DNA from: Candidatus Gastranaerophilales bacterium
GTDB taxonomy: Bacteria > Cyanobacteriota > Vampirovibrionia > Gastranaerophilales > UBA9971
Reading direction: 5' to 3'
DNA: 33,137 nucleotides
NCBI GenBank assembly: GCA_028278305.1
Contig: JANQEP010000134.1
Coordinates: 1 to 33,137, forward strand
The notes under the pieces are model-generated. The model searched no databases. It saw only the letters and a program-made list of their open reading frames with translations, and was not told the origin of the DNA. The stretch's first letter is position 1. Each line of letters starts with the position of its first letter. The position numbers were made by a program, and so were the translations under genes. Below, in pieces: positions 18,134 through 21,717 of the stretch.

Positions 18134-19690
18134 TTATAACTCAACAATTCTGCTTTTGCCGCATCTTCTGGGGTCAGAACATGCTGTAAGCCTGTCTTTA
18201 TTTAACCTTACGCATTGAACGCCGCCAAAATACATATCCAGGTCGTCGAATTTTATAACTTCCCACTCATCAGGAATCCGGCTTTCATCAAGTTCCATTT
18301 TTGACTCAACTACAAGTTTTCCGTCTTCCCAGTGAACCCGTGGCATTTTAACGGCATCGCATAAATTAAGGTTAAGATCTGAAATATTAATTATAGTCTG
18401 CATTATAGCAGGGGCAATCCTGGAAGCCCCGGGGCTTCCTATTGCCAGGATATCATTGTTTTCAACATCAACAGCTATGGTCGGAGCCATTCCGCTTACC
18501 AGCCTCATTCCCGGTTCCAGGGCATGAAAACCAAACGGGTTCAGCTCAAGTTCCCCTAAAGTGTTTCCAAAACATATTCCCGTGCCGGGAAGCGCAACCC
18601 CTGAGCCATATCCCATACTCATTGTTATACTGCATGCATTTCCCAGGTCATCAGAGCATGAAATCTGTGTGGTATTCGGACAGGGAATAATATTAGCGTA
18701 TTTTTCCAGTACATAATCGTCTTTAACAAGGTTATACATATCATTAAAATTCCTGTTGCCCTGCCGGAAAAGCGAATACCTGTCATTAAGAGCTGTATGG
18801 ATTATCCTGCCCAGCTTTGATACTGTATTCGGGTCATAACCTTTAAAGTTAAGATAAGATATGGCTTTTAGCATCTGTATAAGCGCAAGTCCCCCTGCCG
18901 AAGGCGGGGGATTCGTGTATATACCGTAATTTTTATATTTCATGCCAAGGGGTTTTCTTTCGATAACCCGGTAATTTTTCAGGTCATCGGGCGTAACCAG
19001 CCCTCCGCCTTCACGTATGTGCTCAGACATTTTGCGGGCTATTTCACCTTTGTAAATAATGTCAGTGCCTTCATCAGCCATGATTTCAAAGGTATTTGCC
19101 AGATCAGGATTTTTCATCGGGTAGTCTTTAACCGGAATTTCCCCATTTCCAGAAGAAAGAAGGCTTTTTGAATATTCCGTGAACCAGTGAATCTTCCGGG
19201 CTGAGAGAGAAAGCCAGTATGCAACCGTTGAGTTCAGGGGAACCCCTTCCCTTGCATGTTTTATTGCAGGTGAGAGAATATCCTTCATAGCGAGGTTTCC
19301 AAAGTTTTTAGCTACAAGCTCAAGCCCCTTTGAAGTTCCCGGTACTCCAATTGAGCAATACCCGGTTATTACATCTATTCCGATTCCATAGGGAACTCTT
19401 ACGGTCCGCATATTTTTACCAAATTCACTTTTATCAAGACCCATGCCCGGCATGGCATCGAAAAAGTCAAATACAACAGGGTCTTTTCCCGCAACTTTTA
19501 TAGTTGCAAAACCACCCCCGCCAATGCTGCACATCAGGATATTCGAAACCATCAGGTCAAACGCCCCGGCTATCGCAGTGTCAAAAGCGTTTCCGCCCAT
19601 TAATGCGGCTTCTGCCGCTGCGTCGGTTGCGTATGGAGTACAGCTTGCTATTGCGACTTTACCGGGTTTTATCTTATTCATTCCATCCAC
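18134..19690 (-). CDS. ggt: gamma-glutamyltransferase family protein
   Basis: NPPPSAGGLALIQMLKA, TTQISCSDDLGNACSITMSMGYGSGVALPGTGICFGN, GSPGASRIAPAIMQTI; catalytic Thr context TTQIS. Confidence 0.92.
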   Translation of the reverse strand: MDGMNKIKPGKVAIASCTPYATDAAAEAALMGGNAFDTAIAGAFDLMVSNILMCSIGGGGFATIKVAGKDPVVFDFFDAMPGMGLDKSEFGKNMRTVRVPYGIGIDVITGYCSIGVPGTSKGLELVAKNFGNLAMKDILSPAIKHAREGVPLNSTVAYWLSLSARKIHWFTEYSKSLLSSGNGEIPVKDYPMKNPDLANTFEIMADEGTDIIYKGEIARKMSEHIREGGGLVTPDDLKNYRVIERKPLGMKYKNYGIYTNPPPSAGGLALIQMLKAISYLNFKGYDPNTVSKLGRIIHTALNDRYSLFRQGNRNFNDMYNLVKDDYVLEKYANIIPCPNTTQISCSDDLGNACSITMSMGYGSGVALPGTGICFGNTLGELELNPFGFHALEPGMRLVSGMAPTIAVDVENNDILAIGSPGASRIAPAIMQTIINISDLNLNLCDAVKMPRVHWEDGKLVVESKMELDESRIPDEWEVIKFDDLDMYFGGVQCVRLNKDRLTACSDPRRCGKSRIVEL

Positions 19691-19748
19691 TCTTTTTTTA
19701 CAGCTTTTATAAAGGTTATCTAAAATTGCTATGGGGTTTAAAAAAAAT

Positions 19749-19889
19749 TTAATTCTGATATAATATCTTTAGAGGGCGAGAGTGCGCTAATACTCTCATT
19801 AAAGCCCCTCTTAAGAAAACTAAGATTCGCAGAACGAGTAGTAGAAGTAAAAGTGCTACTCGTTCTTTAATTGTAATCTTAATTTCCAG
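19749..19889 (-). CDS. candidate hydrophobic small peptide, 46 aa, CTG start (speculative)
   Basis: Open frame (M/L)EIKITIKERVALLLLLLVLRILVFLRGALMRVLAHSRPLKILYQN, preceded by GAAAGGAGGTGAT with 9-nt spacing from GGAGG to CTG. Confidence 0.4.
   Translation of the reverse strand: MEIKITIKERVALLLLLLVLRILVFLRGALMRVLAHSRPLKILYQN
19759..19764 (+). promoter_or_regulatory. candidate -10 box (TATAAT) for a transcript antisense to the hydrophobic peptide frame
   Basis: Perfect TATAAT; weak -35; predicted start near 19771 at a strong hairpin AGAGGGCGAGAG...CTCTCATTAAAGCCCCTCT. Confidence 0.35.
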
Positions 19890-20000
19890 ATAGCATCACC
19901 TCCTTTCATCGGGTTATCACGTTTTGAGCGTGTCCGGCGAAGAAGAATCAGGGGCTGCCCGTCTGCTGTATTTTCAAAGTTCACTCTGAAAATTATTTTG
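19771..20000. ncRNA. candidate structured RNA (strand ambiguous: ggt leader on minus or independent RNA on plus)
   Basis: Successive stems: GAGAG/CTCTC within AGAGGG/CCCCTCT; AGAACGAGTAG/CTACTCGTTCT within AAGATT/AATCTT; CACG/CGTG; ATTTTCA/TGAAAAT near the end. Confidence 0.4.
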
Positions 20001-20082: not shown

Positions 20083-21717
20083 ATGACTTCATCGGGTTTT
20101 GATCAAGAAAATAAACATAAATATACTGAATTACTTATAAATTCGAAAGATTTATTGCTGCTCGAGTTTAATAAAAATGCGGAAATCATCTTTGCAAACG
20201 CCGGGCTGGAGGAATTACTGGGATGGAAACAGTGTGATATCAAAGAATTAAGAGCATCCTGTATTTTTGACTTTAGAATCTCTGAAGTTGAGAGAATTCT
20301 AAGGGAAAAAGAGGATTATTTTTGTGAAATCAATCTTTTAACAAAAAATAAAGAATTTATTCCTTCAAAAACAAAATTTATCAGGCATGATAGCGGTATT
20401 ATAGCCCTGTCAACCCCGTTATTTGAGATTTATGAAGAAAAAAAATCCTCCTCAAAGCTCACTGAAACCTTACAGATAATAAAAGATATATTAATTCAAC
20501 AGCCGGAAGGTGATGTTTTTTCCCTGTTGTTTACTAAAATCAGAGAACTTCTTAAATATGACCAGGCTATAATTCTTCTTCTGGAAGGTGATTCACTGAT
20601 TATAAAAGCCAGGGACAATATAAGCCTGGCAAATCCGAATTACAGTAAGCTGATTTCCGTAAAAGACAGGGGCCTGGTAAAAATAATCAGGCAAAGAGCC
20701 AGTGTTCTTGAGAATAAAAATATTTCACTGCCCTCAGAACTTGGTATTGCTTCTGCGACTGCCCCGGCATCGGTGCTTGCAGCCCCTTTAACCGTAAGGG
20801 AAATGGTTTACGGAATCGTTGTTTTAATCAAGAATTCTGGCTGTTACGATAAAAATGATGCTAAAATGCTTGAAACTATTGTTTCTGCAGCTTCTTACCT
20901 TATCAAGGATGCCGAGTTAAGCGGTGTTTTTAAGATGCAGCTAAAGGTTTTAAAGGACAATATCAGGGAAAGAAGCCGGGCGCTCGAGCTTATAAGGGAG
21001 CAGAATAAGAAAATCCTTGAAGCTGACAGGATTAAAAACGAGTTTCTGGCAAATATGTCGCATGAACTAAGAACCCCTCTAAACGCTATTATTGGCTTTT
21101 CTGAAGCCCTAAATCTCAATATTTTCGGTGCGCTGAACGAAAAACAGACTGAATATATTAATGATATCCATGCCAGCGGGCTTCATCTTCTCAGGATGAT
21201 CAATGATCTTCTGGATTTGTCAAAGATTGAATCCGGGAAAATGGAACTTAACACTGAGCTTTTTAATGTTAATAATGCTATAGAAGAGGCTGTTAGCGTA
21301 ATTAAGTCTCTTGCTGATAAGAAAAATATAAGCCTGAAAATAGATTCAGATGGTAAAAATATTGAAATAACAGCAGATAAAAGAAAGTTTCAGCAGATTT
21401 TATATAATCTGCTGAGCAATGCCATAAAATTTACGGAAGAAAAAGGAAAAGTCACTGTAAGCCTTGTTGATAAAAAAGATAAAATGGAAATCTCGGTTAA
21501 AGACAACGGAATAGGTATACCAGAAGAATTTCATGAAAAAATATTCGAGAAATTTCAGCAGGTAGAAAACCATATTTCGGAAAAAACAGGAAACACCGGT
21601 CTGGGACTTACAATTACAAAGGAATTAATAGAAATGCACGGCGGTAAAATTCAGGTTGAAAGTAAGAAAGGTAAGGGGTCAAACTTTACTTTTACGCTCT
21701 CGAAGAGCCCTTTATAA
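20083..21717 (+). CDS. sensor histidine kinase (PAS, GAF, HisKA, HATPase)
   Basis: NMSHELRTPLNAIIGFSEAL H-box; NLLSNAIKFT; DNGIGIP; GLGLTITKELIEMHGG. Confidence 0.93.
   Translation: MTSSGFDQENKHKYTELLINSKDLLLLEFNKNAEIIFANAGLEELLGWKQCDIKELRASCIFDFRISEVERILREKEDYFCEINLLTKNKEFIPSKTKFIRHDSGIIALSTPLFEIYEEKKSSSKLTETLQIIKDILIQQPEGDVFSLLFTKIRELLKYDQAIILLLEGDSLIIKARDNISLANPNYSKLISVKDRGLVKIIRQRASVLENKNISLPSELGIASATAPASVLAAPLTVREMVYGIVVLIKNSGCYDKNDAKMLETIVSAASYLIKDAELSGVFKMQLKVLKDNIRERSRALELIREQNKKILEADRIKNEFLANMSHELRTPLNAIIGFSEALNLNIFGALNEKQTEYINDIHASGLHLLRMINDLLDLSKIESGKMELNTELFNVNNAIEEAVSVIKSLADKKNISLKIDSDGKNIEITADKRKFQQILYNLLSNAIKFTEEKGKVTVSLVDKKDKMEISVKDNGIGIPEEFHEKIFEKFQQVENHISEKTGNTGLGLTITKELIEMHGGKIQVESKKGKGSNFTFTLSKSPL

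Follow-up and report, generated by a model that had tools for sequence, protein, structure and literature searches.

A probable multicopy type I toxin-antitoxin-like module of Candidatus Gastranaerophilales, with a predicted antisense terminator inside the peptide codons

The window, a 33,137-nucleotide stretch of contig JANQEP010000134.1 from a Candidatus Gastranaerophilales bacterium, carries a compact two-stranded unit between ggt and a histidine kinase gene. An earlier note on this DNA had read the unit as a possible type I toxin-antitoxin locus, with a structured leader regulating ggt as the main alternative. The features of the locus are as follows.

18134-19690, minus strand: ggt, gamma-glutamyltranspeptidase, a neighbour of the unit.
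19737-19764, plus strand: putative antisense promoter, with -35 TTTAAA at 19737-19742, a 16-nt spacer and an extended -10, TG-n-TATAAT, at 19756-19764.
19749-19889, minus strand: peptide open reading frame (ORF) of 46 codons with a CTG start, of which codons 1-25 (19815-19889) are conserved.
19770-19809, minus strand: predicted toxin mRNA 3' end and terminator, consisting of GGGC, the hairpin GAGAGU..ACUCUC, GCCC and a U/A-rich tail.
19771-19875, plus strand: predicted antisense (antitoxin) RNA of about 100 nt, deduced from the promoter and the coding-sequence (CDS) hairpin.
19801-19809, minus strand: 3' AGGGGCTTT, which pairs with the 5' AGCCCCU.
19831-19874, plus strand: predicted antisense RNA terminator within the toxin codons, AGAACGAGTAG / CTACTCGTTCT and then TTTAATTG.
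19895-19907, minus strand: Shine-Dalgarno (SD) sequence GAAAGGAGGTGAT, near-invariant among copies.
19899-19947, minus strand: leader hairpin, UUCUUCUUC... paired with ...GAUGAAAGGAGG, hiding the SD, from folding and from covariation of the SD-adjacent arm.
19918-19932, minus strand: inner mini-hairpin CACG-CUCAAAA-CGUG, with a conserved 7-nt loop (CUNNAAA) and a covarying stem.
19950-19960, minus strand: 5' terminal element GGGCAGCCCCT (GGGUAAGCCC in relatives), a small hairpin and the partner of the 3' AGGGGCUU.
20083-21717, plus strand: GAF/HisKA histidine kinase gene, a neighbour of the unit.

The frame described in the earlier note was located at 19889-19749, and nearly all of the strong SD before it, at 19907-19895 on the minus strand, can pair with the 16S tail. 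The 12-mer core of this SD, AAAGGAGGTGAT, has no second occurrence in the 2.17-Mb assembly. The remark that no AUG stands in a usable place is correct for the window's genus, and the CTG aligns with the site where relatives have GTG, ATG or TTG. The plus-strand TATAAT at 19759-19764 is present as described, and it also has a TG before it and TTTAAA 16 nt upstream. The minus strand of the region folds with z = -4.0 relative to shuffles (0/200). Rfam, tRNA and tmRNA searches of the region returned no family above its gathering score and no tRNA or tmRNA, so that no Rfam covariance model accounts for the region; the note had named such a model as grounds for refuting its reading. Weak sub-threshold Rfam matches to K10_TLS, SpR18 and SprD were judged to be chance.

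Copies of the unit were collected by several searches. When 60 relatives were searched at the DNA level, a same-genus species proved to have a syntenic copy with 80% identity, and genomes from other genera of the family gave up to nine matches each. A covariance model of the leader matched 46 of the 193 genomes of the order, and in samples of the class and the phylum the matches were confined to that same order. A signature scan of 85,462 species genomes gave 93 stretches; among the 80 records listed, the informative titles were nearly all Melainabacteria, Gastranaerophilales or Cyanobacteria metagenome-assembled genomes. Three gut records with the unit, L105, L126 (Fusobacterium sp. CAG:439) and L152 (Brachyspira sp. 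RUG745), are probably misnamed metagenome bins. The resulting collection holds 107 copies with 97 different ORFs, and a blind test added 32 further copies. Apparently, all copies come from Candidatus Gastranaerophilales/Melainabacteria, a lineage of non-photosynthetic relatives of cyanobacteria, and the carriers live in animal guts and groundwater. The 3' signature had no match in viral contigs, and carriage by phages was rejected on this ground.

The same order of parts was seen throughout the 107 copies. From the 5' end, these are GGGUAAGCCC, the leader hairpin with AGAAAGGAGGUGAUG at its end, a start codon within a few nucleotides of it, the hydrophobic ORF and its stop; after the stop follow GGGCUUUUAA, a hairpin, GCCCUU and then the opposite-strand -10 and -35. 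The 3' end and terminator of the window have the conserved form found in the copies read. Genomes hold 8-9 copies at most, and tandem arrays are spaced at about 305 bp. Arrays of two to four units, about 305-335 bp apart and mostly with different peptides, were seen at L186 (G057:C34:29800-31300), L214 (G102:C20), L197 and L200. Elsewhere, copies precede starts that look by eye, in fetched sequence, like gpmI, metG, pabA/trpG and coaE. One species of the window's genus has an 'empty site' (L223, G001:C385), in which the gap between ggt and the kinase gene is about 127 bp instead of 393 bp.

The peptides are 19-39 aa long in relatives, below 60 aa and hydrophobic, typical ones being VDFSVTEKALVIILLIILALKLL in the gut family and MRVAVNKTDWFAIIVILLLLTATKKELVDILTLFLQK in the window's family. 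Among the copies collected, the start codon is GTG in 48, ATG in 40, TTG in 17 and CTG in two, the last being the window copy and its sister. Across 32 non-overlapping ORF pairs, single-base codon differences were synonymous in 92 cases and non-synonymous in 52, giving a dN/dS of ~0.18, compared with 0.71 and 5.1 in the shifted-frame controls. Synonymous-biased conservation, whose absence the earlier note had named as refuting its reading, is thus present, and the peptides are under purifying selection. Searches of the peptides against Pfam and NCBIfam profiles found nothing above cut-off; TatA-like matches, with E ~0.01 and far below cut-off, were judged to reflect hydrophobicity only. The family is absent from Pfam, NCBIfam and Rfam and is undescribed.

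The 46-aa peptide proposed earlier stands for its first 25 codons, which are conserved; its last 21 residues are read-through into the 3' hairpin and not conserved protein. The sister species, of the same genus and with the same ggt/kinase synteny, has a 25-aa ORF, LEIKIKLKERVAFLLLLLILKILVF, which stops there through one T fewer (TTTTCTAAGAG vs TTTTCTTAAGAG). Since a single base separates the two, the 46 aa of the window can be read as the 25-aa form plus read-through, and the true window peptide is probably about 25 aa.

Across the 62 leaders compared for covariation, the six inner pairs are 85% formed, and the covariation score of the inner stem is 0.577, compared with 0.194 in shuffles (0/500) and 0.01-0.14 in slid controls. 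The mini-hairpin with the CUNNAAA loop is 94% paired, and all four of its pairs vary on both sides. A perfect match between the SD-adjacent arm and the upstream region of the same copy occurs in 43% of copies, vs 9% when arms are exchanged. In computed folds, whole family mRNAs reach a mean z of -5.9 with a mean predicted SD pairing of 0.83. These results indicate that the leader stems are conserved as RNA structure, in which the SD is predicted to be hidden. A first RNAalifold consensus had shifted the SD pairing, probably through gap placement, and was superseded by the anchored tests. The CUNNAAA loop, at 19918-19932 and in all leaders, resembles an anticodon loop (C32-U33-N-N-A-A-A).

In the predicted fold of the window mRNA, a helix between the 5' and 3' ends closes the molecule, which further contains the SD, CDS and 3' hairpins. 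The 5' terminal element, GGGTAAGCCC and variants, is present in most copies and forms the closing helix in computed folds. This helix has little covariation support because its pairing is nearly invariant; one clear compensating variant, GUCC/GGAC, was found in the sister species. The modelled SD of the window is paired with a probability of 0.91, and of 0.86 once the 3' end is removed. Since the SD stays paired, folding gives no support to a hok-type activation by 3' trimming.

On the antisense strand past the ORF, 103 of the 107 copies match the sigma-70 consensus at 10-11 of 12 positions, compared with mostly 7-9 in shuffles; for the -10 this evidence is partly circular, as ATTATAA belonged to the collection search pattern. 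The clean test used 32 new copies picked by the leader alone. All 32 have a hydrophobic ORF and a perfect antisense TATAAT with a -35 at 16-17 nt, and in 31 of them the -35 is TTGAAA. We regard this test as decisive: the predicted antisense promoter, located past the toxin stop codon in relatives, is part of the unit.

Where the antisense RNA would end was addressed through the palindrome in the ORF. The antisense strand folds there with a mean of -21.2 kcal/mol, compared with -12.5 kcal/mol for synonymous codon permutations (mean z = -3.2), and 77% of the hairpins are at or near the best of 100 permutations. In the 8 nt after the hairpin, T occurs 4.5 times on average on the antisense strand vs 1.8 times on the sense strand, so the hairpin resembles a terminator of the antisense RNA and not of the mRNA; part of this T-run is owed to Glu-Lys codons (GAAAAA), which the peptide may require. 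As judged from these comparisons, the codons are tuned beyond what the peptide needs, in favour of a putative antisense hairpin and T-rich stretch. The antitoxin RNA, about 100 nt in the window, appears to end inside the toxin codons. The antisense RNA of the earlier note therefore survives in its promoter, which is kept in every testable copy, and is revised in its extent, for it likely ends inside the ORF, short of the SD. If both RNAs are made, the antisense RNA is complementary to the toxin mRNA by cis overlap of the ORF and 3' UTR.

Taken as a whole, the region is best read as a chromosomal type I toxin-antitoxin-like module, in which a restrained mRNA for a membrane peptide is opposed by an antisense RNA, and we put the probability of this reading at about 0.82. 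The layout proposed by the earlier note is thus supported by genome comparison, and toxicity is what we infer from it. The minus strand would be transcribed into a compact mRNA, encoding a peptide of about 25 aa that crosses the membrane as a single helix. With its SD locked in a hairpin and its 5' and 3' ends paired, this mRNA would be nearly silent. Opposite its 3' end, a strong, constitutive-looking promoter would produce a plus-strand RNA of about 100 nt, spanning the 3' UTR of the toxin mRNA together with the larger part of its ORF and terminating at the hairpin in the toxin codons. First contact would most likely be made through the loop of the 3' hairpin, after which the sense-antisense duplex would be cut or would hold the mRNA inactive. 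With an antisense RNA expected to stop short of the SD, duplex cleavage or mRNA refolding through the 3' UTR, as in TxpA/RatA or BsrG/SR4, fits better than direct SD blocking. If the antisense RNA were lost, the stable mRNA would be translated and the peptide could harm the membrane.

A more speculative extension, which we consider rather doubtful, is that the in-codon terminator is itself a regulatory device, coupling toxin and antitoxin via one palindrome that serves as both membrane helix and transcription stop. Read-through of the terminator would then carry the antisense RNA over the SD, and antisense termination could respond to translating ribosomes or to pairing with the mRNA.

Another possible explanation is that the ORF encodes a non-toxic regulatory small membrane protein, tuning a transporter or kinase and restrained by the antisense RNA. 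The conserved, membrane-like peptides would suit such a protein as well, toxicity being a matter of interpretation, but type I toxins, and not single-target regulators, are typically present in many diverged copies per genome and in tandem arrays, with a patchy distribution and under heavy repression, and we consider this explanation unlikely. Less probable by a wide step is a mobile or repetitive DNA element, such as a palindromic repeat, with an incidental ORF. The unit is multicopy and palindromic, and direct repeats surround some copies; yet selection acts on the amino acids (dN/dS 0.18), the start codon, SD and antisense promoter are all kept, and neither a transposase nor a fixed target duplication was seen around the copies. 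That a structured leader or attenuator of ggt lies here, with the ORF as its leader peptide, is hardly credible, for although two species of the genus carry the unit upstream of ggt and in the same orientation, the third (G001) has ggt and the kinase gene adjacent without it, other copies lie beside unrelated genes or in tandem arrays, and the 3' end of the unit resembles a terminator of its own.

A mobile cassette with target-site duplications was also considered and rejected, as the flanking direct repeats came mostly from neighbouring tandem copies. Two isolated cases remain, L049 and L050, in which the unit is flanked by direct repeats of 30-odd bp. The L049 repeat is the beginning of a coaE-like gene; the arrangement looks like an insertion that duplicated its target and so rebuilt the start of the gene.

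We know of no sequence relation between the Gastranaerophilales family and AapA/IsoA of Helicobacter pylori, the known system nearest to the toxin-antitoxin reading in logic. AapA/IsoA is a multicopy chromosomal family with a peptide of ~30 aa, a cis antisense RNA of ~80 nt, SD-hiding hairpins and pairing of the 5' and 3' mRNA ends (PMC6733600), and the Gastranaerophilales unit, with its predicted RNAs and folds, resembles it in these traits. IsoA has its -10 box within the aapA ORF (PMC6733600); an antitoxin -10 within the toxin ORF is not a feature of the Gastranaerophilales family, in which the promoter lies past the normal stop and the predicted terminator inside the ORF instead. Nearest in taxonomy and in overlap is MsoT1/MsoA1 of Microcystis aeruginosa, from the same phylum, whose antisense RNA of 56-83 nt overlaps the last part of the coding region together with the 3' UTR (PMC12390103). 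By its description it is set apart by a 63-aa toxin with two predicted helices and by being a single characterised locus, with no SD-leader family described; the closest described relatives are photosynthetic cyanobacteria (PMC12390103).

Ldr/Rdl and Ibs/Sib of E. coli likewise encode short hydrophobic peptides, repeated several times in the chromosome and in part arranged in tandem, and the arrays at L186, L214, L197 and L200 resemble those of Ldr. Rdl overlaps the 5' UTR only and Sib the whole ORF and ribosome binding site, whereas the Gastranaerophilales antisense RNA should stop within the ORF. In TxpA/RatA and BsrG/SR4 of B. subtilis and the Fst par locus of pAD1, convergent transcripts also overlap at the toxin 3' end, and repression occurs via RNase III cleavage or mRNA refolding; the TxpA/RatA and Fst overlap stops short of the coding region, unlike that predicted for the Gastranaerophilales unit. 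According to a 2025 paper, which reported the first type I system in Cyanobacteria, such systems had so far been known from Proteobacteria, Firmicutes and Tenericutes alone (PMC12390103). If our reading is correct, the unit would be a large multicopy type I family in the non-photosynthetic sister lineage of cyanobacteria. Codon choice that builds an antitoxin terminator would offer a clean way to study the joint evolution of peptide, mRNA fold and antisense termination, and a covariance model combined with a promoter signature could be a route to such systems without protein similarity.

Of the 49 testable copies, 45 have a sense -10 with five or six matches immediately before the 5' GGG, and no good sense promoter was found for the window copy. 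Its CTG start, shifted stop and lack of a clear sense promoter make the window copy atypical, and it may be weak or decaying. A ACTTTGAAAAT-like sequence, similar to boxA, the antitermination motif of rRNA leaders, was seen upstream of the leader in some copies of the window's family, namely in the window (19970-19982) and at L009, L016, L039, L040 and L047. In several copies with the boxA-like sequence, a larger distance than usual, about 45 nt, separates the -10 from the 5' GG motif downstream of it.
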